Shown here: piece by piece, positions 36,430 to 64,000 of the stretch
Layout: every line of letters starts with the position of its first letter
Numbering within the stretch: position 1 is the first letter of the stretch
Assembly: GCA_964036045.1 (NCBI GenBank)
Contig: CAXIWF010000520.1
Span: 33,140-97,139 of the forward strand
Length of the DNA stretch: 64,000 bases
Origin: Eutreptiella sp. 'Long Island Sound 2002'
Taxonomy: Eukaryota; Euglenozoa; Euglenophyceae; Eutreptiales; Eutreptiaceae
Direction: 5' to 3'
Position numbers and translations under genes: made by a program
The notes under the pieces: model-generated
Seen by the model: the letters and a program-made list of their open reading frames with translations, nothing else
Databases searched by the model: none
What the model was told of the DNA's origin: nothing

Positions 36430-37443
36430 GATCATCGTGCCACCACGTGCATCCTAGAGGGACCCGGCCCCGCCCCTCACGGCACGTACACTGATGGCAG
36501 TCGCATCGGTTTCCCACCCGCCTCTTGCGCCTCAACCGTCTTGCCCGATGGCAGAATTGCCCTTTGTAGAGTGCCGGCTAACCCCAACTCCTTTAAGGCT
36601 GAAGTCGTCGGAGTGCTCGTAGGATCGAGCCTGCCCCCCCCCCCCCCCCCCGGAACAACCCTCCGACTCGACTGCAAGGGCGCTATCGCGTCCACCATAG
36701 GATCCAAACAACCCATCCGCCACGCCCGCTGGGTCCTACATGCACGTGCGTCCCTTCTCCAAAAAAACCAGCACATTGAGTGGGTCGAGGGACACACGGG
36801 TCACACACAGCAAGAACGGTCTGACGAGTACGCCAAATATAGGGCGATGTTGCCTCGACCTCCACCAGAAGTTCCCTCATCCCCCTGGGACATTGTTCGG
36901 CACGGCGAGATCGTGTTGCCACCTCACAAAGTCTGGACACACGACTTGATCCCAAAACACACACACGAACACATACACCCCTCCTCATGGACCCCCATGC
37001 GGCAGAGGCGCTTGGCATGGCATAAATGGCTACTAGGCCTCCAATCCCGCCAAGGGTTCAGCCACAATGGCACGTTTTGGAGGGATGGCGCCCCCGCGCA
37101 TCCCTGCCCCCACTGCCACACCCGACACAACCTCAGTGTACACGGTGTCTTGGTGCATTGTGACCCCTCTCATCCCCTCGTCCAAGCATGGCTGTCATCT
37201 TGGCCCCAACCCTCACTCATTATTCGGTGGCGCGGGTCTGCCTTACACAGAGATCTCTGCGTCGCAGGTCGCCTGGCGGTGCCAGGGGCTCTTTACCGGA
37301 CCCTAGCGACCGCTATGGGAGGCACGCGTGCGGCCCGACGCACCATTGGGATGTACCAAAACAAGGTGATAGATGCAGTGACCGGCGTCCTTGCTGACAG
37401 CGTGCCTGCCCAGTCCGAAAAAAAGAAACCCCTACTGCCCTGA
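36430..37443 (+). pseudogene. Non-LTR retrotransposon remnant: RNase H and C-terminal region
   Basis: The open frame runs from just after the stop at 36427-36429 to the TGA at 37441. It begins inside an RNase H domain: TYTDGSRIG (first catalytic Asp), an FKAEVVGV segment (Glu), LDCKGAIAS (Asp) and WVEGHTGHTQQERSDEYAK (the His and final Asp region). It continues into a Trp/His-rich C-terminus with CPHCHTRHNLSVHG and LVHC, a zinc-knuckle-like cluster common at the end of LINE ORF2. No reverse transcriptase or endonuclease is seen upstream, so it is 5'-truncated, as LINE copies often are. A 16-nt C run encodes a PPPPPP stretch inside the RNase H domain (about 36633-36650) and may be a slippage insertion. 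Confidence 0.7.
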
Positions 37444-41220: not shown

Positions 41221-41419
41221 AGGACCGGTTGTAGTCGCCCCCCCGTGCCTAGGGGCCTTCGGCCAACAATTAGTTGCCAAAGGTGTCGCCCTCAGGGGTC
41301 CATGGGCGCCTAAGGCACCCGATGCTCCATGAACACCAAGGGTGCCCTAAGGAAAATTCTATTGCCTTCGGCAAGTCCACCTCACAGAGATTCTACCCCA
41401 AGCCACACACACCCTAAAT

Positions 41420-42560
41420 AGGGTAAAAACTACATAAATACGGCCTAAAAAATGCTTTACATACCTTGGATGGTCATTCTAAGTGGTGACAATATCAAAA
41501 AAACAAGTTTCGAAAACTTCGATTTTTGAGCTGCCCAGGTTGAAAAGCTGCATAAGCAGGTTGTGTATCAATCCCTTGGGAGACCCCCCCCCCTAGGACC
41601 TAATACCCAAATAGGATGAAAAACACGCAAATACAGCCTAAAACATGCTTTACATACCTTGGATGGTCATTTCAAGTGGTGACAATATCAAAAAAACAAG
41701 TTTCAAAAACTTCGATTTTTGAGCTGCCCAGGTTGAAAAACTGCATAAGCAGGTTGTGTACCAATCCCTTGGGAGACACCCCCCCCCCCCGGGACCTAAT
41801 ACCCAAATAGGGTGAAATATACGTAAATACGGCCTAAAACATGCTTTACATACCTTGGATGGTCATTTTACGTGATGACAATATCAAAAAAACAAGTTTC
41901 AAAAACTTCGATTTTTGAGCTGCCCAGGTTGAAAAACTGCATAAGCAGGTTGTGTACCAATCCCTTGGGAGACACCCCCCCCCCCCCGGGACCTAATACC
42001 CAAATAGGGTGAAATATACGTAAATACGGCCTAAAACATGCTTTACATACCTTGGATGGTCATTTTAGGTGATCACAATATCATAAAAACCAGTTTTGAA
42101 AACTTCATTTTTGAGCTGCCCGGGGTGAAAAGCTGCATAAGCACGTTGTGTACCAATCCCTTGGGAGCCCCCCCCCCCCCCCTCCCCCCCGGACCTAATA
42201 CCCAAATAGGGGGAAAAACATGTAGATACGGCCTAAAACATGCTTTACATAACTTGGATGGTCATTTTACGTGATGACAATATCAAAAAAACAAGTTTCG
42301 AAAACTTCGATTTTTGAGCTGCCCAGAGTGAAAAACTGCATAAGCAGGTTGTGTACCAATCCCTTGGGACACCCCCCCCCCCCGCCTGGGACGTAATACC
42401 CAAATAGGATGAAATATACGTAAATACGGCCTAAAACATGCTTTACATACCTTGGATGGTCATTTTGGGTGATCACAATATCATAAAAACAAGTTTCGAA
42501 AACTTCGATTTTTGAGCTGCCCGGGGTGAAAAATTGCACAAGCAGGTTGTGTACTGGCCC
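41420..42560 (-). repeat. ~197-bp satellite, six copies, minus orientation
   Basis: ATACCTTGGA or its variant starts near 41461, 41654, 41850, 42047, 42249 and 42447, giving periods of 193-202 bp. Each unit has CAAGTTT.GAAAACTTCGA, TTTTTGAGCTGCCC, GCATAAGCAGGTTGTGTA, a C run of 8-15, TACCCAAATAGG and TAAAACATGCTTTACAT. The reverse complement matches the 26926-27715 satellite block for block. Confidence 0.92.
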
Positions 42561-45535: not shown

Positions 45536-45955
45536 TTGGGCCCCAACCTTCCGGTGCTATTCAGGAAACCGGGACAATCTTTGAATCCACGCTTGAACAA
45601 ACAAACGGGAGACAACATCCTAGAGATGTTGCTCCATGTGCATGAGAAAAGCACCGGAGCTCACCCTCTTGACCCGCAAAAAGATGGTGTTCAGTGGTGG
45701 ATTAAGCGTTGTGGTGGAACTCGGTCCCTAAGGACGCAAATCAGTTATATGGGTATTGATGCCCACTCTGCCGAGGAGTTTTGGCTAAAGTATGGGCATG
45801 ATGATTTACTTCCACGCGAACATTTGTTCCGCTTCTTTTTCTTCCTCAAGCACACTCCACCTCAAAGGTGTGCTCATCTCCTCTCTGGAGCAACAGGGTG
45901 CTCTGAGGAGGCTTGGTGGGCAAGTGTGCATCGTGTTCGTTCTTACTATGAATGA
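45536..45955 (+). pseudogene. PIF/Harbinger-like transposase fragment interrupted by the 5.8-kb element
   Basis: An open frame of 139 codons contains FWLKYGHDDLLPREHLFRFFFF, then FLKHTPPQRC and TGCSEEAWWASVHRV. This is the N-terminal helix-turn-helix pattern (FLK.YPT...A..FG.SE.T...W...) seen before the DDE core in Harbinger/DDE_Tnp_4 proteins. It stops at a TGA formed in the target site right where the transposon at 45956 begins. The right flank (51753-51843) is open in another frame for about 30 codons. No catalytic core is present. Confidence 0.45.
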
Positions 45956-45979
45956 CTTAGACGAACCAAGTGTCCACCC
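45956..45979 (+). repeat. Left terminal inverted repeat of the transposon
   Basis: Begins CTTAGACGAACCAAG and ends CCACCC. The preceding five bases, AATGA, are the target duplication. Confidence 0.85.
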
Positions 45980-46357
45980 AAAATGGGCCCCTGTCACCGG
46001 AAAGTGGACCAAAAAAGGGACGTGTCACACGGTGCGAAAAACACGGTTAAAGAACATGAAGCCAAACCCGGGAAAGAAGAAATGTCCTAAAAAGACAGTG
46101 GTTGTGCAAGTACATGAGCAGTTGTGTACCACCGTGTTACCACGCGCATGCATATATGCACTTCAGTGTGTTTCATTTGAATTGCTGCATGTTGTTTGTT
46201 GTTCGAATAGCAAAGAGACGCAGGGAAGTTCACAATGTAGGCAGGAAGTCTCATGTATCGAAACTTCGGTTGCAAGATTAGCTACATCAAACTGTTTGTC
46301 CACCCGACTCCTGATAGTCTGTGTATGTGAAAATTAGAATGAAAAAGCAATGATGCT

Positions 46358-46800
46358 ATCGAAATTTCGATTGTCGAAGCTACGTGACAATTTGCCTTGC
46401 ATGGATCAATCGAAATTTCGATTGGAAGTCTTTAACGACATTCAGAGAGCAAACCATCAAAATCCTTCACGAAGGTTTACCGGAACATAGTTGTACTACA
46501 GTAGTATATGAATTTTAAATTACAACGTTGTAGAAAAATAAAGGTAAAAGAAATAAGAGGTAAAATAAATCAAACACATATGAATGTTTTATCCGATACA
46601 CAATCGATTTATTTCTAAAACCAATCGAAATTTCGATAGGAGCATCTCGAATCAAAATTTTGATAGGAGCATTCGACAGAAAAGGAATTCAATTCCTATC
46701 GAAATTTCGATAGGAACGTCCAATCGAAATTTAGATAGCCGCTAAAGAAATAACTACCCTGTAAAGCATAGGCTGTTTAAACTGCAATCGAATTTTCGAT
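46358..46800. promoter_or_regulatory. Left subterminal cluster of ATCGAAATTTCGAT palindromes
   Basis: Perfect cores lie at 46358-46371, 46409-46422, 46624-46637 and 46698-46711. Degenerate ones are at 46651-46664, 46723-46736 and 46787-46800. The copy at 46698 extends to a 24-bp perfect palindrome, the one at 46409 to 18 bp. The cluster ends 88 bp before the first ORF, where transposase-binding or promoter sites would be expected. The core GAA-NN-TTC arrangement also resembles a two-unit heat-shock element. Confidence 0.7.
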
Positions 46801-46887
46801 AGTGACAGTCTGACAGAGTCCAAAGATTTTAAATGCTAGACTATTTGTTGTCTTCTATTTCATGTACGAGTTCCATGTACGCCAAAG

Positions 46888-48858
46888 ATGGATGGCCATT
46901 TCATTGCCTACGTGCGAGGATTCCTCGCTTCGCACTCTTGGGAGAATGGACGCCAAATTATTGAAGATGCTTGCGAAGGCGGTACGTCAAGGCGATTTGT
47001 TGAATTTGTCCTTGGAATAAGGATAACCAAACGCCGCCGCCAGACATTTGAGCAGGTGGTTGCTAACAGAAACTGTACACCTTTGCCCAGATGGCTCAGC
47101 GTACTCCAGCAGGAGCTCTTCAACATCTGGCGTGTGCTGCACCTGCGTGCGGCACCCCTCGCTTTTCGCCCGGCTCTGGACATTACTGTTTCGCAGCGCG
47201 AACGGAAGTTACTCGCAAGGTTTGGCATAGTTCCACCTCGAATACCGACTCTGCAGGAATCTGGTGTTGCAGCAGCGATGGACCTCTGGAATGCAATGAG
47301 CATTGCTTCTGTTGGCATTTGGATGGACAATTTTTTCAGAAAACGATTCCTGCAGAACCCAGATGGACCGCCCGGACATCTTGACTGTTCTGCCGTAGCC
47401 GTGCTCTTTACAATCTTGCTGCCCCGATTTCCTGGACATCTCACATTGCGCCGCATAGTTTTCAGACTGCCAGGTGTCATGAGATGCATTCGGACCTCCA
47501 TCAGGGGTCTACTGAAAACTATTGCAGCTGTTACGGATGGGACGTTACAGGCACATTTCATCCGTGCGCCACTCGACATCGCCAGAGGTATCGTGCATCC
47601 ACAAATTTGGAAACCTATGCTGCTGGACGAGTGTCGAACAAGCACAAACACTGAGCTGCTGCAGTTAATTGAGATGATGCGTCGCATACAGATTCATACA
47701 GGCCGGGATTTGCCTTTGCTGGTGGACATGAAAATACATGCATCGGTTTTGCGTTTCATGTACGGTGCGAAGCTCAGAAGTCTTGACTACCGGTCACATG
47801 TGGAACGCATTCCACTGCTTTATGGCATTTGGCATCCGTACAAATACTGTGTACACATTACTTTCAGGCGTTTCTTTCCCGTTATTTCTTGGCTGCTCAA
47901 ACCATTTATCACGGAGCGGACTAAGATTCCTTGTCATCGGAAGCTCATATACATGGAAAAGGTTTTTGCCGGTCTTTTGTTAACGAGCAACGTGTTGAAA
48001 GGTCTTATCACCGAAGCTAGAGATAGATTGTCGACCCTCCGACGACCAATGAATCTTGAAAACACTGTGGCATATCAAAAGATTCAATCCCTGTACAGTC
48101 TGTTGTTTGTTTTCACACCTGCTCTCTGGTCCATTGGGTATGGGGTTCGAGAATGTACTTGGGCCGGGGCCGCTCTGGATTCTGGGAAGACCGCACGCAC
48201 TGTTCTTGAACATTGTCTGCTTTTACTGGTCTCCCTTACACAAAAGCATGCTCCCAAGATAGAGTATGTTCGGACCTTATGCACTGCACTCGGTACATGG
48301 CAGTTATGGTATGACATGGTTCCTGGTTGTCTGTTCGTTGAGGAAAGTTGTGAAGCCTCTTTGTCACGTTTGGGACATGCTCTCACTCTGCTGCCACACG
48401 TCACAGATCTTTCTCGCGCAAGTGATGTTTACTGCACCCTTCCCCCCTTGCAGAAAGAACGGGTTCTCAGATCTTCGGTCCAGCCACATCTGGTTACACA
48501 TTTTGTTATTACGATACGTTCATTTGTTCAACGGGCTGCGGATATCAACACGCCTTTCACACGGTTCCAGACCAAACACAGGACAGTTACACCTGATCCT
48601 GTATGGGATCCCAGTTACCTTCCTCCACTTGACTTAACTGTTGATTCCCCCTTACTTGATATGTGCATGATTCGGGCTCTCAAGTTAATGTGCAAACACA
48701 GAGATGTCACAGAGGGAATCCATCAATATATGACCCACATTCCTAGAACACCTCTTCCTGATCGTGTTTCCTATGTGAAAGCTTGGAAAAAATTAGCAAC
48801 GACTCCATCGCCTCTTCACCGAGTGTCACCTCAAAGGTCTTTATCGAAATTTCGATAG
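46888..48858 (+). CDS. Transposon ORF1, 656 aa, candidate transposase of unassigned family
   Basis: An intronless ORF opens at the first ATG after an in-frame stop (46837-46839). The N-terminus is basic (GIRITKRRRQTF). The centre has a Trp/Asp-rich part (residues ~130-155) and a conserved-looking segment LLVDMKIHASVLRFMYGAK (Asp280, Lys282, His284) leading to IPLLYGIWHPYKY (about 308-320) and RRFFPVISWLL. The end has DPSYLPPLDLTVDSPLLDM. I cannot place it in a named transposase family. A catalytic role is inferred from its position as the largest gene between intact TIRs. The stop TAG is supplied by a copy of the element's own palindrome (48843-48856). The alternative, splicing into the next gene, would need a phase-1 donor: the obvious GTCTTT donor at 48837 is phase 2 and gives an early stop. 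Confidence 0.75.
   Translation: MDGHFIAYVRGFLASHSWENGRQIIEDACEGGTSRRFVEFVLGIRITKRRRQTFEQVVANRNCTPLPRWLSVLQQELFNIWRVLHLRAAPLAFRPALDITVSQRERKLLARFGIVPPRIPTLQESGVAAAMDLWNAMSIASVGIWMDNFFRKRFLQNPDGPPGHLDCSAVAVLFTILLPRFPGHLTLRRIVFRLPGVMRCIRTSIRGLLKTIAAVTDGTLQAHFIRAPLDIARGIVHPQIWKPMLLDECRTSTNTELLQLIEMMRRIQIHTGRDLPLLVDMKIHASVLRFMYGAKLRSLDYRSHVERIPLLYGIWHPYKYCVHITFRRFFPVISWLLKPFITERTKIPCHRKLIYMEKVFAGLLLTSNVLKGLITEARDRLSTLRRPMNLENTVAYQKIQSLYSLLFVFTPALWSIGYGVRECTWAGAALDSGKTARTVLEHCLLLLVSLTQKHAPKIEYVRTLCTALGTWQLWYDMVPGCLFVEESCEASLSRLGHALTLLPHVTDLSRASDVYCTLPPLQKERVLRSSVQPHLVTHFVITIRSFVQRAADINTPFTRFQTKHRTVTPDPVWDPSYLPPLDLTVDSPLLDMCMIRALKLMCKHRDVTEGIHQYMTHIPRTPLPDRVSYVKAWKKLATTPSPLHRVSPQRSLSKFR
48843..48856. 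promoter_or_regulatory. Palindrome between ORF1 and ORF2
   Basis: TATCGAAATTTCGATA here both encodes the last residues (SKFR) and provides the TAG stop of ORF1. It sits between the two genes, upstream of a good 3' splice signal (pyrimidine-rich, ending TATGCAG at 48913). Confidence 0.7.
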
Positions 48859-48945
48859 CGGGTCCACTTCGATTAACATTACGTCACAAATTCTTTCCTT
48901 ATTATCTATGCAGGAGTACCTACCCCAAAGGCCGCAACGCTGACA

Positions 48946-50978
48946 ATGATGCACAAGACCGGATACACTGCAGTGCACGGCACAGACGAAGAAGTTGCAA
49001 AGCGATGGACGGTTCTTGCAAGTTTCGTTTCCCAAGTTGAGGACAAAGCGATCATTCCGAAACTCGTCGAGCTTCAGGGGAAGGACGAGTTGAACCCGGT
49101 GTTCAACAACTACAAGCCGCTTGAGGGATTGTATCCGCCGGAGATTGCGCAGGTAGTTACTTTCTTTGCGTCATTGTTATTTATTTAAAACAACACAGTC
49201 ATCTTCGGACATATCTTCACAGGTTTGTGAAAGGCTGCTGGAAGGAGGTCTGACGCCACCATTGCTTAAGACCTTCGTTCGGAGACTTCGGGAGCAGCGA
49301 ACTTGTTCTTGGCATTTGGAACATCCGGACAACCCCTTCATGCACGAGTCTCGGAAAAACTTTGCAGAGTGGAAGAGAATAACGTCATCACTGTCTCCCC
49401 AGGATTTCAAGGTGCATATCCCGCGCTGGAAGTGGACCGAACAGCATCCTTTGCCGCCTTGGACGACCATCAGCAAGGCCCCCATCTGGTCTGATGAGTA
49501 TTTCAAGACCCTCCGCGAATCCCTCAGTCAACCGAAGGTGAAGCCTGTGATCAAAAGTACGTCGGCAGAATGTCTGACAGTAACGCTTGGTGAAACCAAA
49601 CCCGGAGAGGCAGTCTGTGAAGTCCGCATCGGGCCAGCTGTCGGTGCAACCCCTGCTGCAATCTCTGGACTGAAACCGAGGATTCTCGTCTATCAGATTC
49701 CGAAGGGTACCGCTGCGGGACGCCCCCTGTGTCCAATGATGTTGTCTTACGTCCTTGATGAGGAGTTGATGCCCGTTCTGCTTTTGGTTGGAGATCGTCC
49801 TGACGTCCGCGTTGTTCTGAACGCCATCTCTGCGTCAACGGATGATGAGTTCAATACAAGGGACATCGCGTTGTACAATAAGGGGATTTTGACCAGCAAT
49901 TACACCATGGCAACTTCCCAGCTCGTTGTCTTGACATTGCGCCATATCAAAGAATGGAAGGTGTGTTCTATCGAAATTTCGATAGCGTCGCTTTGCGTAC
50001 TTCCTCCTATCGAAATTTCGATTGTTTTTCTTTTAGCCCCCGAGGTACATTACCTTCGAAGACGAGCGGTACAACAATCCGGCCGAAGATGACAATCGAC
50101 TCCCTCCAGAGATTCTGGGTTGCATCATGCATCAACTCAAATTGGATGTTATCGAAGAAAGCGTCAACGAGATCTGGGTTGCGGTTCAGACTACATCTCC
50201 CGTTCTGGTGAGCAACATCCGGCTTCGTCTCCGTTGTCACGTTAACGTTGCCGTTCTTCTTGGTTTGTCAACGGCTCCAAGCAAAGAACAATTGACGAAG
50301 TTTACTGATGATGGTATGTTTCAAGGCCTCCCTTCCTCCGCTAGTTCAATCAACTCATCAACTCATTTTTTCTGCTTTTTCTTACAGTTTCAGCTGGCCT
50401 TCAAAGGGTACAGGCCCTACCACCGATCCAATGGGATCTTGTTCTCGACCGAATGAAGCGGGGTTATCCCCTTGAGGCTCCTGACACTGACGAAGGTATG
50501 CATTCAAAGATACCTCATCAAATTTGTCTTGTTCCTCTCCTTCACTATTTGTTCTGCCACAGATTCTTCGGACAATGACGACGACAAGGACACAGTCAAG
50601 GGTCAAGCGAAGGCAGCGAAGGACGCTGAGAAAAAAGTCAGCCAGGCCTTGACGAAAGAAGAGAAAAAAGCGGCTGCTCAGGAGAAAGTATGTCTGTTTA
50701 TATCTACATATCTGCCTCGATGTTTTATTTTCTTTAATCATTCTTTCACCCTTCCTCTGCAGAAGGAATCCGAAAAGGCGGCGAAGGAAGCAGCAAAGCA
50801 GGCGGCAAAAGAATCGGCGAAAGGTAAGAAAGAAGGAACACAGAAGGAAAAAGAGAAGAAGAAGTCTGCTTTTGCTGATTTTCAGGCCAAGTTGTCGAAG
50901 GCTGCTACGGATCAGCCCAAGAAGAAGGGCTCGCCCCACAAGGATTCTCATCCGAGTCGGGCTACCACCAAGAAGTAA
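48946..50978 (+). CDS. Transposon ORF2, six exons, 556 aa, Lys-rich C-terminus, function unknown
   Basis: Exons: 48946-49152, 49223-49960, 50037-50313, 50388-50495, 50563-50687 and 50763-50978. Every junction is GT-AG and in phase (0,0,1,1,0), total 557 codons with stop, which makes the model firm. The body (1-440) has no motif I recognise. It includes YKPLEGLYPPEI, an IPRWKWTEQHPLPPW segment and a PPRYITFEDERYNNP segment. A short acidic stretch (DSSDNDDDKD) precedes about 110 residues of Lys/Ala/Glu-rich coiled or disordered tail ending near ATTKK. Such a tail suggests nucleic-acid or chromatin binding, by inference only. Intron 2 (49961-50036) carries two palindrome copies in 76 nt. The acceptor at 48913, upstream of the ATG, implies a 5' exon, possibly non-coding or part of ORF1. 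Confidence 0.75.
49970..50022. promoter_or_regulatory. Pair of palindromes inside a 76-nt intron of ORF2
   Basis: Cores lie at 49970-49983 and 50009-50022, in the intron bounded by AAG/GTGTGT and CTTTTAG. In RNA each can fold on itself or pair with the other, looping out the middle of the intron. Confidence 0.7.
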
Positions 50979-51045
50979 TCGAGCATATGTCATATTTTTA
51001 GTCTCCGTTTTTTATTTCTCCTGGTGATATGTTGTTGTTTTCTCT

Positions 51046-51214
51046 ATCGAAATTTCGATAGAAACCCCGTTTCGATGACCACCGATGCTGTGTTTTCGTC
51101 AATCGAAATTTCGATTGGCCCCCGCCCGTCAGATTTTTATGTTTTAATCCTATCGAGATTTCGATAGGCATCGACGACAGATTCCTTTCTATATTATGCT
51201 ATCGAAATTTCGAT
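51046..51214. promoter_or_regulatory. Right subterminal cluster of palindromes
   Basis: Perfect cores lie at 51046-51059, 51102-51115 and 51201-51214; one mismatched copy is at 51152-51165. The last extends to a 24-bp perfect palindrome with different outer bases (ATGC...GCAT) from the 46698 copy (TTCC...GGAA). Confidence 0.7.
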
Positions 51215-51723
51215 AGCATCTTGCCCGGAGTAATATGTCTTTCACTGCTGAAAGGCTCATCGTTACTTGAAGTGAGCACTCCTTGAGCTGCTCGGCACAA
51301 TCACCGAGTACACAGATGGCATCATTTGAAAGAGATCATCAGAAATTGTCCTCATTCGTTTTGGCCCTATGCTCTGCGTGCCTGTTTTGCGTGTGACGTT
51401 TATGCGCTGTCAACAACTGTCAGGTTTCCACGAGGTTTTTAAAATGTTTTCAATTGTCCATCTCAATTTTCCCCTCTACCCTACCCCCTACAAATCAGCT
51501 ATGTCCCCTACCCCCGATTTCGAGGTTCTCCCACCACATTTCTTCCCTTCCCATAGTAAATACCCCACTTTTGACTATTGTTTTTCGGCTACGTTTTTCC
51601 TCAGTTTGTGTCTCACGGACCAGAAATCGAGGTAAAATTTTTTGTTACTTCAAATTTCGGTGCTGTAGCTCGACTTTTTTCGGTTCGCCTGTTACGATTT
51701 AGATAGCCGGAGGCAGGTTTTCC
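51215..51723. other. Right non-coding end of the transposon
   Basis: T/C-rich sequence (CCCCTCTACCCTACCCCC, then GATTTCGAGG and AAATCGAGG) without palindromes or credible ORFs. It presumably holds the 3' untranslated part of ORF2 and right-end cis elements. Confidence 0.4.
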
Positions 51724-51747
51724 GGGTGGACACTTGGTTCGACTAAG
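51724..51747 (-). repeat. Right terminal inverted repeat of the transposon
   Basis: GGGTGG...CTTGGTTCGACTAAG. It is the inverse of 45956-45979 with a single mismatch and is followed directly by AATGA. Confidence 0.85.
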
Positions 51748-51855
51748 AATGATGTTGTCGCTGAAATTTGATGGGCAGTTTGGGTCACCTAATTCTAAGG
51801 GCGTTTCCAAGGGGTGTGCTTGGGGGCTCTTCGGGGGGAACATAGTCTAAAAGTA

Positions 51856-51868
51856 GCGCGCAGTGCAA
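51856..51868 (+). repeat. 13-bp direct repeat, right copy
   Basis: GCGCGCAGTGCAA, identical to 45362-45374. Confidence 0.5.
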
Positions 51869-53319
51869 AGACTCCCCCCTAGACCCCCCTTCCAATGCCC
51901 CCCCCCCCCCCCCCCAAGGGGCCTCCGGCCATCAGTTAGTTGGGGGGGTAGTTGGCGTCCAGAACCGAGGGGTCGCCCCCCCCCCGGGGTGTGTGTGTGT
52001 GTGTGTGTGTGTGGATAAGTGTTTACAATGGAAAACGTGATGTGAAGTGAGTTCCACTTGCTGCTTCTTGGGACGTCGTTCATTGTCCAGGTCAAGCTGT
52101 GCTGAAGTGCCCACAGTATCACGTCGAGCTTAATGATTGATAAACCCGGACCTTGCACGGGCAGCCCCTAGATTGGAGGGCATGTCAGTGGGCTCAGTCC
52201 CCCCTTGACCGGTTCGTGGGTGTGCCACAGGTCACACAAGATGTGCACCGCAGCGTTCATGGCATGTCCGGCGGCACACGCTTGGGCGAGCACGACACAG
52301 TCCCATTGCCACATGGCCCTGGAGGAGAGGTCTAGCATCGGGGCCATGATGTGTTGTGCTGACCTTGTGGCGTGGCTGTGGTGGGGGCGGTCATTGTGTG
52401 CCGGCCCTGATACGGCGTGACCACGACCAACTGATGTACTGCGTACCACCACCGGATGAGGCCTCGTCTGCAGATTGCCGTAGGAGCCTGGGGAGATCCG
52501 TGGCTGTCACTAGACAAAGGGGGACCGCGGTGGGTGCCAACAAAGATAGACGCATTGAGTCACGGCGATGGAAGTTCGGCATTGGGCTCCCAACGGCCAC
52601 CCGATGCTGGGCACAGCCATTGTTATGGTGTCATGATGGTTGTCGAGTAGCACCACCCATTGAGGGGGTACTAAATGCGGTGCGTGTAGTGGGGTGATTT
52701 CGTAGACCTACCCACCTATTCGACAATGAAGTGGATGTATTTCCAAGCTGTAAGAGGTATATACTGCACTGTGTCCCCTTACAGTTTCACCCATGTCTCT
52801 ATCATGGCTTCCTGCAGGCATCACTGTCTGTCACCTGCACCCGATCAAATGGTGATAGGGTGCCTGCCACCGTCATCTCCTGCCTCGGAGTGTGGGCAGT
52901 ATGTGAGTATTGAGTAACCAAGGAGCCAAGGAATGCCTTTTTCTCCAATGTCTGTTCCACCACGTTGCACGGTGCAGGTAATCCCCCAGGGACCAGCTAA
53001 TGGGGGGGGCGGGGGGCACAAGCAAAATGAGGGGCATGCACTGGTCAAGCTTCAGAAGTTACGATACCACCATTGCCCCCCCCCCCCCCTGCACTTAAGG
53101 CCAAGCCAAGAAAATTGGGCAGCTGTTTGTCACACATTGCTGATTGGAACTGCCGAACATTGCTGCATATGCATACCAGGACGTGCATGTGTGGACCTTT
53201 GACCTGCGTGCGGCCCCGCGCACTTTGCCCATGGGCCTCCTCCGGACTAGCGTTCTTCATTGCTGCTGATGTCTGTGCGTCTTCAGGTCCACACAATGTG
53301 AGTGCGCCCTGCTTCCCAG
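51869..53319. other. Spacer or intron upstream of the 53320 exon
   Basis: It starts with C runs and a 26-nt GT tract (about 51988-52013). The rest is moderately GC-rich, with another C run at 53078. The segment 51905-51985 resembles 41225-41275. No gene is supported, though small exons of the downstream gene could be hidden here. Confidence 0.4.
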
Positions 53320-53861: not shown

Positions 53862-56800
53862 CTTTCGGTGGGCTTTCGGTAGGCTTTCGGTAGGCTTTCG
53901 GTAGGCTTTCGGTAGGCTTTCGGTAGGCTTTCGGTAGGCTTTCGGTAGGCTTTCGGTAGGCTTTCGGTAGGCTTTCGGTAGGCTTTCGGTGGGCTTTCGG
54001 TCTTGATCGGTCTTGAGCGGTCTTGAGCGGTCTTGATCGGTCTTGACCGGTCTTGATCGGTCTTGATCGGTCTTGATCGGTCTTGATCGGTCTTGATCGG
54101 TCTTGATCGGTCTTGATCGTCTTGATCGGTCTTGATCGGTCTTGATCGGCCTTGATCGGTCTTGATCGGTCTTGATCGGTCTTGATCGGTCTTGATCGGT
54201 CTTGATCGGTCTTGATCGGTCTTGATCGGTCTTAATCGGTCTGGAGCGGTCTTGATCGGTCTTTATCGGTGTTTATCGGTCTTGATCCGTCTTGATCGGT
54301 CTTGAGCGGTCTTAATCGGTCTTCAGCAGTCTTGATCGGTCCTGATCGGTCTTGATCGGTCTTTATCGGTCTTTATCGGTGTTTATCGAACTTGATCGGT
54401 CTTGATCGGTCTTGATCGGTCTTGATCGGTCTTGATCAGTCTTGACCGGTCTTGATCACTCTTCATCGGTCTTGAGCGGTCTTGATCGGTCTTCATCGGT
54501 CCTGAGCGGTCTTTATCGGTCTTGAGCGGTCTTGAGCGCTCTTGATCGGTCTTGAGCGGTCTTGATCGGTCTTGATCGGTCTTGATCGGTCTTGATCGGT
54601 CTTGATCGGTCTTGATTGGTCTTGATCGGTCTTGATCGGTCTTGATCGGTCTTGAGCGGTCTTGATCGGTCTTTATCGGTCTTGATCGGTCTTGATCGGT
54701 CTTGATCGGTCTTGATCTGTCTTTATCGGGGTTATGTGGGCTTTCGGTAGGCTTTCGGTAAGCTTTCGGTAGGCTTTCGGTAGGCTTTCGGTGGGCTTTC
54801 GGAAGGCTTTCGGTAGGCTTTCGGTAGGCTTTCGGTGGGCTTTCGGTAGGCTTTCGGTAGGCTTTCGGTAGGCTTTCGGTAGGCTTTCGGTAGGCTTTCG
54901 GTAGGCTTTCGGTAGGCTTTCGGTAGGCTTTCGGTCTTGATCGGGCTTGATCGGTCTTGATCGGTCTTGATCGGTCTTGACCGGTCTTGATCGGTCTTGA
55001 GCGGTCTTGAGCGGTCTTGATCGGTCTTGAGCGGTCTTGATCGGTCTTGATCGGTCTTGATCGGTCTTGATCGGTCTTGATCGGTCTTGATCGGTCTTGA
55101 GCGGTCTTGATCGGTCTTCAGTGGTCTTGATCGGTCTTGATCGGTCTTGATCGGTCTTGATCGGTGTTGATTGGTCTTGATCGGTCTTGATCGGTCTTGA
55201 TCTGTCTTTATCGGGGTTATGTGGGCTTTCGGTAGGCTTTCGGTAGGCTTTCGGTAGGCTTTCGGTAGGCTTTCGGTGGGCTTTCGGAAGGCTTTCGGTA
55301 GGCTTTCGGTAGGCTTTCGGTGGGCTTTCGGTAGGCTTTCGGTAGGCTTTCGGTAGGCTTTCGGTAGGCTTTCGGTAGGCTTTCGGTAGGCTTTCGGTAG
55401 GCTTTCGGTAGGCTTTCGGTAGGCTTTCGGTAGGCTTTCGGTAGGCTTTCGGTGGGCTTTCGGTCTTGATCGGTCTTGATCGGTCTTGATCGGTCTTGAT
55501 CGGTCTTGATCGGTCTTGATCGGTCTTGATCGGTCTTGATCGGTCTTGATCGTCTTGATCGGTCTTGATCGGTCTTGATCGGCCTTGATCGGTCTTGATC
55601 GGTCTTGATCGGTCTTGATCAGTCTTGATCGGTGTTGATTGGTCTTGATCGGTCTTCATCGGTCTTGATCAGTCTTGATCGGTCTTGATCGGTCTTGATC
55701 GGTCTTGATCGGTCTTGATCGGTCTTGATCGGTCTTGATCGGTCTTGAGCGGTCTTGATCCGTCTTGAGCGGTCTTGATCGGTCTTGATCGGTCTTGATC
55801 GGTCTTGATCGGTCTTGATCGGTCTTGATCGGTCTTGATCGGTCTTGATCGGTCTTGAGCGGTCTTGATCGGTCTTCAGTGGTCTTGATCGGTCTTGATC
55901 GGTCTTGATCGGTCTTGATCGGTGTTGATTGGTCTTGATCGGTCTTGATCGGTCTTGATCTGTCTTTATCGGGGTTATGTGGGCTTTCGGTAGGCTTTCG
56001 GTAGGCTTTCGGTAGGCTTTCGGTAGGCTTTCGGTAGGCTTTCGGTGGGCTTTCGGAAGGCTTTCGGTAGGCTTTCGGTAGGCTTTCGGTGGGCTTTCGG
56101 TAGGCTTTCGGTAGGCTTTCGGTAGGCTTTCGGTAGGCTTTCGGTAGGCTTTCGGTGGGCTTTCGGTAGGCTTTGGGTAGGCTTTCGGTAGGCTTTCGGT
56201 AGGCTTTCGGTAGGCTTTAGGTGGGCTTTCGGTCTTGATCGGTCTTGATCGGTCTTGATCGGTCTTGATCGGTCTTGATCGGTCTTGATCGGTCTTGATC
56301 GGTCTTGATCGGTCTTGATCGTCTTGATCGGTCTTGATCGGTCTTGATCGGCCTTGATCGGTCTTGATCGGTCTTGATCGGTCTTGATCAGTCTTGATCG
56401 GTGTTGATTGGTCTTGATCGGTCTTCATCGGTCTTGATCAGTCTTGATCGGTCTTGATCGGTCTTGATCGGTCTTGATCGGTCTTGAGCGGTCTTGATCG
56501 GTCTTGATCGGTCTTGAGCGGTCTTGATCGGTCTTGAGCGGTCTTGATCGGTCTTGATCGGTCTTGATCGGTCTTGATCGGTCTTGATCGGTGTTGATCG
56601 GTCTTGATCGGTCTTGAGCGGTCTTGATCGGTCTTCAGTGGTCTTGAGCGGTCTTGATCGGTCTTGATCGGTCTTGATCGGTGTTGATTGGTCTTGATCC
56701 GTCTTGATCGGTCTTGATCTGTCTTTATCGGGGTTATGTGGGCTTTCGGTAGGCTTTCGGTAGGCTTTCGGTAGGCTTTCGGTAGGCTTTCGGTAGGCTT

Positions 56801-59800
56801 TCGGTTGGCTTTCGGAAGGCTTTCGGTAGGCTTTCGGTGGGCTTTCGGTAGGCTTTCGGTAGGCTTTCGGTAGGCTTTCGGTAGGCTTTCGGTAGGCTTT
56901 CGGTAGGCTTTCGGTAGGCTTTCGGTAGGCTTTCGGTAGGCTTTCGGTAGGCTTTCGGTAGGCTTTCGGTAGGCTTTCGGTAGGCTTTCGGTGGGCTTTC
57001 GGTCTTGATCGGTCTTGATCGGTCTTGATCGGTCTTGATCGGTCTTGATCGGTCTTGATCGGTCTTGATCAGTCTTGATCGGTCTTGATCGTCTTGATCG
57101 GTCTTGATCGGTCTTGATCGGCCTTGATCGGTCTTGATCGGTCTTGATCGGTCTTGATCAGTCTTGATCGGTGTTGATTGGTCTTGATCGGTCTCGATCG
57201 GTCTTGATCGGTATTGCGCGGTCTTGATCGGTCTTGATCGGTCTTGAGCGGTCTTGATCGGTCTTGAGCGGTCTTGATCGGTCTTGATCGGTCTTGATCG
57301 GTCTTGATCGGTCTTGATCGGTCTTGATCGGTCTTGATCGGTGTTGATCGGTCTTGATCGGTCTTGAGCGGTCTTGATCGGTCTTCAGTGGTCTTGATCG
57401 GTCTTGATCGGTCTTGATCGGTCTTGATCGGTGTTGATTGGTCTTGATCGGTCTTGATCGGTCTTGATCTGTCTTTATCGGGGTTATGTGGGCTTTCGGT
57501 AGGCTTTCGGTAGGCTTTCGGTAGGCTTTCGGTAGGCTTTCGGTAGGCTTTCGGTGGGCTTTCGGAAGGCTTTCGGTAGGCTTTCGGTAGGCTTTCGGTG
57601 GGCTTTCGGTAGGCTTTCGGTAGGCTTTCGGTAGGCTTTCGGTAGGCTTTCGGTAGGCTTTCGGTAGGCTTTCGGTAGGCTTTCGGTAGGCTTTCGGTAG
57701 GCTTTCGGTGGGCTTTCGGAAGGCTTTCGGTAGGCTTTCGGTAGGCTTTCGGTGGGCTTTCGGTAGGCTTTCGGTAGGCTTTCGGTAGGCTTTCGGTAGG
57801 CTTTCGGTAGGCTTTCGGTAGGCTTTCGGTAGGCTTTCGGTAGGCTTTCGGTAGGCTTTCGGTAGGCTTTCGGTCCTGATCGGGCTTGATCGGTCTTGAC
57901 CGGTCTTGATCGGTCTTGACCGGTCTTGATCGGTCTTGAGCGGTCTTGAGCGGTCTTGATCGGTCTTGAGCGGTCTTGATCGGTCTTGATCGGTCTTGAT
58001 CGGTCTTGATCGGTCTTGATCGGTCTTGATCGGTCTTGAGCGGTCTTGATCGGTCTTCAGTGGTCTTGATCGGTCTTGATCGGTCTTGATCGGTCTTGAT
58101 CGGTGTTGATTGGTCTTGATTGGTCTTGATCGGTCTTGATCTGTCTTTATCGGGGTTATCTGGGCTTTCGGTAGGCTTTCGGTAGGCTTTCGGTAGGCTT
58201 TCGGTAGGCTTTCGGTAGGCTTTCGGTGGGCTTTCGGAAGGCTTTCGGTAGGCTTTCGGTAGGCTTTCGGTGGGCTTTCGGTAGGCTTTCGGTAGGCTTT
58301 CGGTAGGCTTTCGGTAGGCTTTCGGTAGGCTTTCGGTAGGCTTTCGGTAGGCTTTCGGTAGGCTTTCGGTAGGCTTTCGGTAGGCTTTCGGTAGGCTTTC
58401 GGTAGGCTTTCGGTAGGCTTTCGGTAGGCTTTCGGTAGGCTTTCGGTAGGCTTTCGGTAGGCTTTCGGTCTTGATCGGGCTTGATCGGTCTTGATCGGTC
58501 TTGATCGGTCTTGACCGGTCTTGATCGGTCTTGAGCGGTCTTGAGCGGTCTTGATCGGTCTTGAGCGGTCTTGATCGGTCTTGATCGGTCTTGATCGGTC
58601 TTGATCGGTCTTGATCGGTCTTGATCGGTCTTGAGCGGTCTTGATCGGTCTTCAGTGGTCTTGATCGGTCTTGATCGGTCTTGATCGGTCTTGGTCGGTG
58701 TTGATTGGTCTTGATCGGTCTTGATCGGTCTTGATCTCTCTTTATCGGGGTTATGTGGGCTTTCGGTAGGCTTTCGGTAGGCTTTCGGTAGGCTTTTGGT
58801 AGGCTTTCGGTAGGCTTTCGGTGGGCTTTCGGAAGGCTTTCGGTAGGCTTTTGGTAGGCTTTTGGTGGGCTTTCGGTAGGCTTTCGGTAGGCTTGCGGTA
58901 GGCTTTCGGTAGGCTTTCAGTAGGCTTTCGGTAGGCTTTCGGTAGGCTTTCGGTAGGCTTTCGGTAGGCTTTCGGTAGGCTTTCGGTAGGCTTTCGGTAG
59001 GCTTTCGGTAGGCTTTCGGTGGGCTTTCGGTGGGCTTTCGGTCTTGATCGGTCTTGATCGGTCTTGATCGGTCTTGATCGGTCTTGATCGGTCTTGATCG
59101 GTCTTGATCGGTCTTGATCGGTCTTGATCGTCTTGATCGGTCTTGATCGGTCTTGATCGGCCTTGATCGGTCTTGATCGGTCTTGATCGGTCTTGATCAG
59201 TCTTGATCGGTGTTGATTGGTCTTGATCGGTCTTTATCGGTCTTTATCGGTGTTTATCGAACTTGATCGGTCTTGATCGGTCTTCATCGGACTGGATCGG
59301 TCTTGATCAGTCTTGACCGGTCTTGATCACTCTTCATCGGTCTTGAGCGGTCTTGATCGGTCTTCATCGGTCTTGAGCGGTCTTTATCGGTCTAGAGCGG
59401 TCTTGAGCGGTCTTGAGCGGTCTTGAGTGGTCTTGAGCGGTCTTGATCGGTCTTGATCGGTCTTGATCGGTCTTGAGCGGTCTTGATCGGTCTTCATCGG
59501 TCTTGATCAGTCTTGATCGGTCTTGATCGGTCTTGATCGGTCTTGATCGGTCTTGAGCGGTCTTGATCGGTCTTGATCGGTCTTGATCGGTCTTGATCGG
59601 TCTTGATCGTCTTGATCGGTCTTGATCGGTCTTGATCGGTGTTGATTGGTCTTGATCGGTCTTGATCGGTCTTGATCTGTCTTTATCGGGGTTATGTGGG
59701 CTTTCGGTAGGCTTTCGGTAGGCTTTCGGTAGGCTTTCGGTAGGCTTTCGGTAGGCTTTCGGTGGGCTTTCGGAATGCTTTCGGTAGGCTTTCGGTAGGC

Positions 59801-61770
59801 TTTCGGTGGGCTTTCGGTAGGCTTTCGGTAGGCTTTCGGTAGGCTTTCGGTAGGCTTTCGGTAGGCTTTCGGTAGGCTTTCGGTAGGCTTTCGGTAGGCT
59901 TTCGGTAGGCTTTCGGTAGGCTTTCGGTCTTGATCGGGCTTGATCGGTCTTGATCGGTCTTGATCGGTCTTGACCGGTCTTGATCGGTCTTGAGCGGTCT
60001 TGAGCGGTCTTGATCGGTCTTGATCGGTCTTGATCGGTCTTGATCGGTCTTGATCGGTCTTGATCGGTCTTGATCGGTCTTGATCGGTCTTGAGCGGTCT
60101 TGATCGGTCTTCAGTGGTCTTGATCGGTCTTGATCGGTCTTGATCGGTCTTGATCGGTGTTGATTGGTCTTGATTGGTCTTGATCGGTCTTGATCTGTCT
60201 TTATCGGGGTTATCTGGGCTTTCGGTAGGCTTTCGGTAGGCTTTCGGTAGGCTTTCGGTAGGCTTTCGGTAGGCTTTCGGTGGGCTTTCGGAAGGCTTTC
60301 GGTAGGCTTTCGGTAGGCTTTCGGTGGGCTTTCGGTAGGCTTTCGGTAGGCTTTCGGTAGGCTTTCGGTAGGCTTTCGGTAGGCTTTCGGTAGGCTTTCG
60401 GTAGGCTTTCGGTAGGCTTTCGGTAGGCTTTCGGTAGGCTTTCGGTAGGCTTTCGGTAGGCTTTCGGTAGGCTTTCGGTAGGCTTTCGGTAGGCTTTCGG
60501 TAGGCTTTCGGTAGGCTTTCGGTCTTGATCGGGCTTGATCGGTCTTGATCGGTCTTGATCGGTCTTGACCGGTCTTGATCGGTCTTGAGCGGTCTTGAGC
60601 GGTCTTGATCGGTCTTGAGCGGTCTTGATCGGTCTTGATCGGTCTTGATCGGTCTTGATCGGTCTTGATCGGTCTTGATCGGTCTTGAGCGGTCTTGATC
60701 GGTCTTCAGTGGTCTTGATCGGTCTTGATCGGTCTTGATCGGTCTTGGTCGGTGTTGATTGGTCTTGATCGGTCTTGATCGGTCTTGATCTCTCTTTATC
60801 GGGGTTATGTGGGCTTTCGGTAGGCTTTCGGTAGGCTTTCGGTAGGCTTTTGGTAGGCTTTCGGTAGGCTTTCGGTGGGCTTTCGGAAGGCTTTCGGTAG
60901 GCTTTTGGTAGGCTTTTGGTGGGCTTTCGGTAGGCTTTCGGTAGGCTTGCGGTAGGCTTTCGGTAGGCTTTCAGTAGGCTTTCGGTAGGCTTTCGGTAGG
61001 CTTTCGGTAGGCTTTCGGTAGGCTTTCGGTAGGCTTTCGGTAGGCTTTCGGTAGGCTTTCGGTAGGCTTTCGGTGGGCTTTCGGTGGGCTTTCGGTCTTG
61101 ATCGGTCTTGATCGGTCTTGATCGGTCTTGATCGGTCTTGATCGGTCTTGATCGGTCTTGATCGTCTTGATCGGTCTTGATCGGTCTTGATCGGCCTTGA
61201 TCGGTCTTGATCGGTCTTGATCGGTCTTGATCAATCTTGATCGGTGTTGATTGGTCTTGATCGGTCTTTATCGGTCTTTATCGGTGTTTATCGAACTTGA
61301 TCGGTCTTGATCGGTCTTCATCGGACTGGATCGGTCTTGATCAGTCTTGACCGGTCTTGATCACTCTTCATCGGTCTTGAGCGGTCTTGATCGGTCTTCA
61401 TCGGTCTTGAGCGGTCTTTATCGGTCTAGAGCGGTCTTGAGCGGTCTTGAGCGGTCTTGATCGGTCTTGAGCGGTCTTGATCGGTCTTGATCGGTCTTGA
61501 TCGGTCTTGAGCGGTCTTGATCGGTCTTCATCGGTCTTGATCAGTCTTGATCGGTCTTGATCGGTCTTGATCGGTCTTGATCGGTCTTGAGCGGTCTTGA
61601 TCGGTCTTGATCGGTCTTGATCGGTCTTGATCGGTCTTGATCGTCTTGATCGGTCTTGATCGGTCTTGATCGGTCTTGATCGGTCTTGACCGGTCTTGAT
61701 CGGTCTTGATCGGTCTTGATCGGTCTTGATTGGTCTTGATCGGTGTTGATTGGTCTTGATCGGTCTTGAT
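53862..61770. repeat. Right minisatellite array, mixed 10-mer and 11-mer blocks
   Basis: The units and the 10-to-11 linker (TTTATCGGGGTTAT) are the same as in 1-4627. Linkers lie near 54722, 55208, 55968, 56728, 57478, 58148, 58748, 59688, 60203 and 60798. From about 57.9 kb the order of blocks and rare variants (for example TTTATCGAACTTGATC near 59256 and 61290) follows that of the left array. The array starts abruptly, with TATCTTTCGG, next to the 53320 gene exon. Confidence 0.96.
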
Positions 61771-64000
61771 CGGTAGGCCCTCGGTAGGCTTTCGGTAGGC
61801 TTTCGGTGGGCTTTCGGCAGGCTTTCGGTAGGCTTTCGGCAGGCTTTCGGTAGGCTTTCAGTGGGCTTTCGGTAGGCTTTCGGTAGGCTTTCGGTGGGCT
61901 TTCGGTGGGCTTTCGGTAGGCTTTCGGTAGGCTTTCCGTAGGCTTTTGGTAGGCTTTCGATGGGCTTTCGGTACGCTTTTGGCAGGCTTTCGGTAGGCTT
62001 TCGGTAGGCTTTCGGTAGGCTTTCGGTAGGCTTTCGGTAGGCTTTCGGTAGGCTTTCGGTGGGCTTTCGGTAGGCTTTTCGTAGGCTTTCGGTGGGCTTT
62101 CGGTAGGCTTTCGGTAGGCTTTCGGTAGGCTTTCGGTAGGCTTTCGGTAGGCTTTCGGCAGGCTTTCGGTAGGCTTTCGGTACGCTTTCGGTGGGCTTTC
62201 GGCAGGCTTTCGGTAGGCTTTCGGTAGGCTTTCGGTAGGCTTTCGGTGGGCTTTCGGTAGGCTTTCCGTAGGCTTTTGGTAGGCTTTCGGTGGGCTTTCG
62301 GTCCGCTTTTGGCAGGCTTTCGGTAGGCTTTGGGTAGGCTTTCGGCAGGCTTTCGGTAGGCTTTCGGTAGGCTTTCCGTAGGCTTTTGGTAGGCTTTCGG
62401 TGGGCTTTCGGTAGGCTGTCGGTAGGCTTTTGGCAGGCGTTCGGTAGGCTTTCAGTAGGCCTTCAGTGGCTTTTTGGTAGGCATTCGGTAGGATTTCGGT
62501 AGGCGGGCTTTCGGTGGGCCTTCGGTAGGCTTTCGGTAGGCTTTCGGTAGGCTTTCGGTGGGCTTTCGGTAGGCTTTCGGTGGGCTTTCGGTAGGCTTTC
62601 GGTAGGCTTTCGGTAGCCTTTCGGTAGGCTTTCGGTGGGCTTTCGGTAGGCTTTCGGTGGGCTTTCGGTAGGCTTTCGGTAGGCTCTCGGCAGGCTTTCG
62701 GTAGGCTTTCGGTAGGATTTCGGTAGGCTTTCGGTAGGATTTCGGTAGGCTTTCGGTAGGCTTTCGGTAGGCTTTCGGTGGGCTTTCGGTGGGCTTTCGG
62801 TAAGCTTTCGGTAGGCTTTCGGTAGGCTTTCGGTAGGCTTTCGGTAGGCTTTCGGTGGGCTTTCGGTAGGCTTTCGGTAGGCTTTCGGTAGGCTTTCGGT
62901 GGGCTTTCGGTAGGCTTTCGGTAGGCTTTCGGTAGGCTTTTCGTAGGCTTTCGGTGGGCTTTCGGTAGGCTTTCGGTAGGCTTTCGGTAGGCTTTCGGTA
63001 GGCTTTCGGTAGGCTTTCGGTACGCTTTTGGTAGGCTTTCGGTAGGCTTTCGGTGGGCTTTCGGCAGGCTTTCGGTAGGCTTTCGGTAGGCTTTCGGTAG
63101 GCTTTCGGTGGGCTTTCGGTAGGCTTTCGGTAGGCTTTCGGTGGGCTTTCGGTGGGCTTTCGGTAGGCTTTCGGTGGGCTTTCCGTAGGCTTTTGGTACG
63201 CTTTTGGTGGGCTTTCGGTACGCTTTTGGCAGGCTTTCGGTAGGCTTTCGGTAGGCTTTCGGTAGGCTTTCACTGGCTTTTTGGTAGGCTTTCGGTAGGC
63301 GGGCTTTCGGTGGGCCTTCGGTAGGCTTTCGGTAGGCTTTCGGTAGGATTTCGGTAGGCTTTCGGTAGGCTTTCGGTGGGCTTTCGGTAGGCTTTCGGTA
63401 GGCTTTCGGTAGGCTTTCGGTAGGCTTTCGGTAGGCTTTCGGTAGGCTGTCGGTAGGCTTTCGGTAGGCTTTCGGTGGGCTTTCGGTGGGCTTTCGGTAG
63501 GCTTTCGGTAGGCTTTCGGTAGGCTTTCGGTAGGCTTTTGGTACGCTTTCGGTGGGCTTTGGGTAGGCTTTGGGTAGGCTTTCGGTAGGCTTTCGGTGGG
63601 CTTTCGGTAGGCTTTCGGTAGGCTTTCGGTAGGCTTTCGGTAGGCTTTCGGTAGGCTTTCGGTGGGCTTTCGGTAGGCATTCGGTAGGCTTTCGGCAGGC
63701 TTTCGGTAGGCTTTCGGTAGGCTTTCGGTAGGCTTTCGGTAGGCTTTCGGTAGGCTTTCGGTAGGCTTTCGGTGGGCTTTCTGTAGGCTTTTCGTAGGCT
63801 TTCGGTGGGCTTTCGGTAGGCTTTGTAGGCTTTCGGCAGGCTTTCGGTAGCCTTTCGCCAGGCTTTCGGTAGGCTTTCGGTAGGCTTTCGGTAGGCTTTC
63901 GGTAGGCTTTCGGTAGGCTTTCGGTAGGCTTTCGGTGGGCTTTCGGTAGGCTTTTCGTAGGCTTTCGGTGGGCTTTCGGCAGGCTTTCGGTAGGCTTTCG
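61771..64000. repeat. Right minisatellite array, 11-mer part
   Basis: Nearly identical to 4628-6890, including the first unit (CGGTAGGCCCTCGG) and the rare runs TTCCGTAGGCTTTTGG, TTTCGATGGGC and GTAGCCTTTCGCCAGG. It continues past the right edge of the window. Confidence 0.96.

Follow-up and report, generated by a model that had tools for sequence, protein, structure and literature searches.

Transib elements combine a 5-bp target-site duplication with a RAG1-like transposase and CACWRTG ends. Among other candidate relatives, the protist DNA transposons TDD-4 and TDD-5 are described as having 5-bp duplications, and their group, Ginger2/TDD, as having terminal inverted repeats (TIRs) of about 50–180 bp (PMC2836005); Harbinger-type elements are described as having a two-gene layout (PMC12477816). 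Further systems for comparison are algal transposons such as Sola1-1_Ec32, for which a ParB-like/DNA-methyltransferase accessory protein has been proposed to mark the element's own DNA (PMC12477816), and the VANDAL elements of Arabidopsis (MULE). There, VANC21 is described as binding YAGTATTAY motifs on VANDAL21, mainly in non-coding parts, and as removing methylation, while VANC6 uses a motif other than that of VANC21 (PMC5735166). Here we describe an element of the euglenophyte Eutreptiella sp. 'Long Island Sound 2002' that shares some features with each of these systems. It occupies positions 45956–51747 of a 64,000-nucleotide stretch of contig CAXIWF010000520.1 (positions 33,140 to 97,139), referred to below as the window.

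On balance, we read this element as a deleted copy of a 7.2-kb cut-and-paste transposon with two genes, of which open reading frame 1 (ORF1) would encode the transposase and ORF2, most likely, a protein that acts on palindromes dispersed through the element, with anti-silencing as its probable use. In its mode of action it resembles cut-and-paste transposons and perhaps VANDAL/VANC, and we could assign it to no named family.

Ends, target sites and copies of the element

The boundaries of the element are as follows.
45951–45955, no strand: left target-site duplication AATGA, read from the sequence
45956–45979, plus strand: left TIR CTTAGACGAACCAAGTGTCCACCC, from repeat search, window scan and genome count
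51724–51747, minus strand: right TIR, CTTAGTCGAACC... on the minus strand, from repeat search, window scan and genome count
51748–51752, no strand: right target-site duplication AATGA, read from the sequence

An earlier reading made from the sequence alone (the sequence-only reading) had proposed a DNA transposon with 24-bp TIRs differing by one mismatch and an exact AATGA duplication on both sides, and these positions bear out both features. The TIR pattern matches twice in the window, against 0.00 matches expected from 100 shuffles. The host genome searched comprises 2.28 Gb in 2205 contigs (labelled C1, C2, C521 and so on); it holds 86 exact 24-bp ends, and the reversed control gave 0. When paired by the distance between neighbours, these ends resolve into 35 elements and 16 single ends. 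Nineteen elements measure 7169–7226 bp (about 7.2 kb) and five measure 5792 bp; nine other shorter pairs (2404–5648 bp) and two longer ones (7833 and 9487 bp) are known from end spacing alone, their interiors being unread. The ends read CTTAG[A/T]CGAACC, and in 34 of the 35 pairs one end has A as its sixth base and the opposite end has T. The sole paired element with the same sixth base at both ends (A/A, not A/T) is C24:18991406-18998613.

We fetched ten full-length 7.2-kb copies (L009 to L018, with L009 as the reference copy) and read their borders base by base. All ten have perfect 5-bp duplications. L011 and L012 share the CAAAA site sequence and their flanks and are counted as one insertion, so that nine insertions other than that of the window are represented, with the duplications AATCA, CAACA, CAAAA, ACTCT, AATTG, TTGTG, AGATG, AAGCA and AATTT. 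Together with AATGA this makes ten distinct duplications, among which no obvious fixed target was seen. Fixed TIRs at many loci and a duplication of fixed length that differs between insertions fit an element of the cut-and-paste type. The sequence-only reading had named copies with the same ends and different duplications as the check on its claim, and differing ends, or an ORF1 that was a host gene, as grounds to abandon it; such copies exist (35 loci, nine other insertion sites), the ends agree at all 35 loci, and the outcome favours a transposon. Its proposal of two genes within a DNA transposon is upheld by the ends, the duplications and the gene content.

The same reading took the window copy to be intact, with two uninterrupted genes, and this had to be given up. 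Aligned to the ten fetched copies, the window copy lacks one 1407-bp block that is present in all ten; the other alignment gaps amount to 10, 9, 1 and 1 columns.
48794–48795, no strand: junction of the 1407-bp internal deletion, from alignment to full copies; a 1-bp A is common to both sides

The missing block takes in the end of ORF1, the stretch between the genes, the first exon of ORF2 and most of its second exon. About the last 60 residues of ORF1 are gone, its frame running on for 63 bases into other sequence, to 48858, and ORF2, which the gene model given below divides by 7 introns, has lost its start. With both genes cut short in this way, the window copy is not an intact element. An insertion of 1407 bp in the other copies is also ruled out, because both genes, open in most copies, extend into the block, ORF1 with its end and ORF2 with its start. 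The window copy is an internal-deletion derivative and presumably non-autonomous. Incomplete gap repair after excision leaves such deletions in other transposons, and the 1407-bp deletion may have arisen in that way.

The five 5792-bp copies lie on C521 (the contig of the window; two copies), C6 (two) and C464 (one). All share AATGA and 1.5-kb flanks, with 0–4 substitutions and 0–12 gap columns per side and pair, which rules out independent insertions. They therefore represent one insertion followed by segmental duplication, and give no evidence that the 5792-bp form transposes. The two on C521, at 18288–24079 and 79095–84886, are about 61 kb apart and inside segmental duplications. An open frame at 45536–45955 of the window (139 aa, without Pfam match) reaches the insertion and ends within the duplication itself; the other four 5792-bp copies have a one-base difference just before the duplication. 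Recent activity, also suggested by the sequence-only reading, is supported by the full-length copies, which are 98.0–99.6% identical to L009 and have distinct duplications, and not by the window copy. Its claim of an AT-rich element in a GC-rich setting is borne out to a modest degree: GC is 0.39–0.51 in 46001–52000 and 0.55–0.60 in the adjoining kilobase on each side, and 41–45 kb also has GC of 0.47–0.51.

On the features tested, membership in Transib, Ginger2/TDD or Harbinger fails. The 5-bp duplication is shared with Transib, whereas the ends are CTTAG[A/T]CGAACC rather than CACWRTG; searches of Pfam and of PDB sequences revealed no RAG1-like transposase, and remote kinship is possible. 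TDD-4 and TDD-5 likewise agree in the duplication and differ in their much longer TIRs (24 bp here); their Gypsy-like integrase domain was not detected in the element's proteins by Pfam, again with remote kinship possible. Harbinger-type elements agree in the two-gene layout, but they make 3-bp duplications where this element has 5-bp duplications at ten sites, and no Harbinger profile matched. Sola1-1_Ec32 is similar in having an accessory protein for which binding to the DNA of its own element is proposed; it differs in that no methyltransferase or ParB profile matched the pieces of ORF2 scanned here.

Genes, their products and relatives in the genome

In L009, ORF1 is intronless, encodes 697 aa and spans element positions 943–3036. 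ORF2 encodes 798 aa in 8 exons at element positions 3505–6441, with 7 GT-AG introns of 67–100 bp, in a model predicted from open frames and splice signals alone, without transcripts. In the window, the following parts are left.
46888–48794, plus strand: authentic part of ORF1 (full protein 697 aa in L009), from open frames and alignment to L009
48795–48836, plus strand: remnant of ORF2 exon 2, placed by sequence from the L009 model
48914–49152, plus strand: ORF2 exon 3, L009 gene model
49223–49960, plus strand: ORF2 exon 4 (246 aa; many distant relatives in the genome), L009 gene model
50037–50313, plus strand: ORF2 exon 5, L009 gene model
50388–50495, plus strand: ORF2 exon 6, L009 gene model
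50563–50687, plus strand: ORF2 exon 7, L009 gene model
50763–50978, plus strand: ORF2 exon 8, lysine-rich tail and stop, L009 gene model

Among the ten fetched copies ORF1 is open in nine, ORF2 in eight and both in seven; L016 has a stop in ORF1, and ORF2 is damaged in L014 and L015. Selection was assessed in nine copies, L012 being left out as a duplicate of L011. Changes found in at least two copies are mostly synonymous in both genes (23 synonymous to 14 non-synonymous in ORF1, 22 to 14 in ORF2; p about 1e-6 each), against expected synonymous fractions of 0.24 and 0.23, respectively. Changes confined to a single copy come close to neutrality in ORF1 (11 to 36) and show a weaker bias in ORF2 (21 to 33). 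A larger set for ORF1 gave the same pattern, with 64 synonymous to 36 non-synonymous shared changes and 90 to 143 single ones; it comprised 28 of 30 loci, with two of other length dropped and the five window-type duplicates kept in. Both genes evolved under purifying selection. Since shared changes are mostly synonymous and single ones are not, the proteins were selected while their lineages were active and decayed afterwards, the pattern expected for transposons.

The sequence-only reading had called for a profile search of both proteins, and we ran one against Pfam, PHROGs, NCBIfam and PDB sequences, with nothing above cut-off. Pfam returned nothing for ORF1 at E values of 1 or below, and neither ORF2 without its last part nor the ORF1 of a second family described below (family B) had a Pfam match above cut-off. 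PHROGs and NCBIfam gave none above cut-off for ORF1, family B ORF1 or the scanned pieces of ORF2. The only profile hits listed lay far below the cut-off, at E 0.057 and E 0.16 (the latter a chance Pfam hit of family B ORF1). No PDB sequence matched ORF1 by profile search or ORF2 by phmmer; the PDB searches taken together gave one chance hit at E 0.99. A stretch in exon 2 of ORF2, L-G-G-Q-H-A, recalls ParB/DGQHR proteins in our impression, with no profile to back the likeness; the pieces of ORF2 scanned against Pfam, PHROGs and NCBIfam matched no ParB N-terminal or related profile, even with E values as high as 10 allowed.

Relatives are plentiful within the host genome. A search with ORF1, in which 70 of 7671 candidates were scored, gave at least 72 matches, and 14 of these are at 32–38% identity. 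One group of these, which we call family B (family A being that of the window element), is represented by locus L049. Its ORF1 has 755 aa and shows 34% identity along some 600 residues, and the gene order is that of family A, with a downstream ORF2 that is 33% and 31% identical in two stretches. A genome search with L049 ORF1 returned at least 61 matches (59 of 8347 candidates scored): family B itself, family A at 33–36% and a few others at 31–40%. Several blocks of ORF1 are invariant between the two families, namely W-x-D-N (D147), P-L-D-I (D230), D-M-K-x-H (D280), Y-G-x-W-H-P-Y-K-Y-C, M-E-K-V-F-A-G-L-L-L and E-x-x-E-x-x-x-S-R-L-G (E486, E489). Judged from these two families only, the spaced invariant acidic residues would suit a DDE/D enzyme.

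Exon 4 of ORF2 gave at least 150 genome matches (150 of 2314 first-look candidates scored). Among those listed, 53 are at 73% identity or more, one is at 53% and 96 are at 27–36%; the 96 are scattered through the genome, often within 439-aa open frames, and could belong to another abundant element type. The element is thus a member of a diverse group of families in the host genome that fits no described superfamily we could assign, as the sequence-only reading had supposed; comparison with profiles, PDB sequences and the literature led to no assignment. A new superfamily of DNA transposon is likely, though not proven, on the basis of Pfam, PHROGs, NCBIfam, PDB sequences and published descriptions.

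Dispersed palindromes and surrounding sequence

A 14-bp palindrome, ATCGAAATTTCGAT, has 15 sites in the window at up to 2 mismatches, where 0.05 are expected. All lie within the element, and none occurs elsewhere in the window at that threshold.
46358–46800, no strand: left palindrome cluster, starts at 46358, 46409, 46624, 46651, 46698, 46723 and 46787, with a 2-mismatch site at 46257
48843–48856, no strand: palindrome in an ORF2 intron, from the motif scan
49970–50022, no strand: two palindromes in an ORF2 intron, starts at 49970 and 50009
51046–51214, no strand: right palindrome cluster, starts at 51046, 51102, 51152 and 51201

The half-sites mostly read C-W-A-T-C-G-A-A-A, where W is T or A on either side in all combinations. 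L009 has 20 palindromes, eight before ORF1, three between the genes, five in three ORF2 introns and four after ORF2. All 20 are non-coding, against 38% expected (62% of the element is coding); the corresponding p of 3e-9 assumes independent sites, and clustered sites are not independent. In the whole genome there are 595 exact sites and 30 of the reversed word. Fifty of the 595 were listed (on C1 and C2), and every one of these lies in a family-A match or within 1.6 kb of one.

Family B has a palindrome of its own, about TCTTCCGAAATTTCGGAAGA; with as many as 2 mismatches allowed in its 12-base core, the 9-kb locus L049 has 15 sites. None of them falls in ORF1, the sole coding region delimited there. 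The exact 16-mer occurs 123 times in the genome and the control 0 times. The palindromes of families A and B differ around a common CGAAATTTCG core. Some of the 50 listed family B sites form tight clusters away from the listed family-B ORF1 matches, among them C3:177794918-177795025, C4:18300456-18300521 and C5:26585600-26585717; such dense clusters are possibly non-autonomous derivatives or a further family.

A family-specific motif that is dense in the non-coding parts of the element, as in VANDAL/VANC, is thus found in family A. The likeness extends to an accessory gene beside the transposase and to a short motif that is repeated in non-coding parts and introns and differs between families (PMC5735166); VANC21 motifs are arrayed in one orientation there, while the motif of the present element is a true palindrome. 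Other differences are the 5-bp duplication and proteins without profile match, and likeness in anti-silencing would hold by analogy.

The remainder of the window and the host can be described briefly. The paraflagellar-rod family PF05149, which is not known outside Euglenozoa, has 39 matches over cut-off in the host genome, the strongest at E 1.2e-105, and 14 control genomes gave none; this supports a euglenozoan host, and its introns and genome size make a euglenid likely. Huge tandem arrays of an 11-bp unit (GGCTTTCGGTA) and a 10-bp unit (TCGGTCTTGA), with strong strand asymmetry, fill window positions 1–17198 and 53862–64000 and bracket the 37-kb middle on both sides. Two short satellite arrays at 26915–27718 and 41411–42554, with units of about 187 and 196 bp, lie in opposite orientations and share about 75% identity. 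A 337-aa open frame at 36430–37443 resembles, by our impression, a retrotransposon RNase H region. The window was also scanned for Rfam families and tRNAs, and this led to nothing.

Competing explanations and a possible self-marking system

Several results weigh against the reading that we favour. Neither protein has profile or fold support as a transposase, and structure models were unusable, with pLDDT (predicted local distance difference test) scores of 35 for ORF1 and 36 for the N-terminal part of ORF2, probably for want of relatives. Inverted ends with a 5-bp duplication were not found in L049, a locus that stops before the expected right end. The very large set of distant exon 4 relatives could mean that ORF2 is the enzyme. 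No palindrome lies within 300 bp of the left end or within about 530 bp of the right end, and these sites therefore say nothing direct about transposition. Finally, 12 of 280 palindrome bases vary among copies, against 110 of 1638 other non-coding bases (p = 0.14); palindrome bases are slightly, not significantly, less variable, which counts against strong present constraint.

If the roles of the proteins were exchanged, ORF2 would be the transposase and ORF1 an accessory or regulatory protein reading the palindromes. Transposase genes tend to be shared more widely than the rest of an element, and the 96 distant matches of exon 4, out of 150 listed, would fit this. The spaced invariant acidic residues sit in ORF1, however, as in a DDE enzyme, and ORF2 ends in a lysine-rich, low-complexity tail; moreover, ORF1 relatives at the 96 loci may be among the candidates left unscored (59 of 8347 scored). 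We consider the exchange rather unlikely. It seems unlikely to us that the element belongs to a superfamily already described (Transib, Ginger2/TDD, KDZ/DUF6589 or another) and has diverged too far for profiles to detect. The 5-bp duplications of TDD-4 and TDD-5 (PMC2836005) agree with this reading, as do the W-x-D-N and D-x-K-x-H blocks of ORF1, which we take to be reminiscent of DUF6589 proteins. On the other side stand the CTTAG ends and 24-bp TIRs, unlike those of the families compared, and the profile results for both ORF1 proteins and the PDB search given above; the DUF6589 profile PF20231 matched neither ORF1 nor anything in the host genome, and the control genomes gave no match either. 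The ends and duplications practically refute a piece of virus or a host gene cluster inside a repeat. In Euglena gracilis, endogenous giant-virus regions are described as carrying transposase genes close to their edges (PMC12455990). Our 35 elements have identical ends, ten insertions have distinct duplications, and ORF1, searched alone, had no relatives in viral contigs, genome contigs or phages.

The strongest competitor concerns the palindromes. As operators or enhancers they could serve ordinary self-regulation (autorepression or transposase loading) unconnected with silencing, and we regard this as a real possibility, if somewhat short of an even one. Dispersed palindromes serve plasmid regulators such as KorB, and the clusters upstream of ORF1, between the genes and downstream of ORF2 lie where promoters could be. 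Five of the 20 sites of L009 are in ORF2 introns, however, and four follow the stop, odd positions for promoter operators. Because introns and intergenic parts are filled and the ends are free, the palindromes look like a mark of the whole element rather than docking sites for transposase.

In the cut-and-paste transposon that we favour, ORF1 would be a transposase of DDE/D type that cuts and joins the ends, with D147, D280 and E486 or E489 as candidate catalytic residues. A protein encoded by the element, most likely ORF2, would bind the palindromes as a symmetric dimer, and the element would thereby tag its own DNA. By analogy with VANC on VANDAL, the most likely use of such a tag would be to keep copies expressed or unsilenced. 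More tentatively, and with considerable doubt, we suggest a new superfamily of eukaryotic DNA transposons in Euglenozoa with self-marking, in which ORF2, possibly of a ParB-like fold, reads family palindromes with a CGAAATTTCG core, protein and site diverge together and each family protects or activates only itself.

We found no element with these features in the literature, judged mostly on titles and the openings of abstracts. To the same extent, DNA transposons of Euglenozoa seem little described, the reports listed being one on Merlin in kinetoplastids and one on a dinoflagellate. The two proteins without profile match above cut-off may represent a new transposase lineage, and the palindrome motif is defined well enough for a simple binding assay. 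If the self-marking proposal is true, the dispersed palindromes, which change with the family and keep a core, would be a counterpart of anti-silencing by VANC, independent of it and found in a remote eukaryotic lineage.

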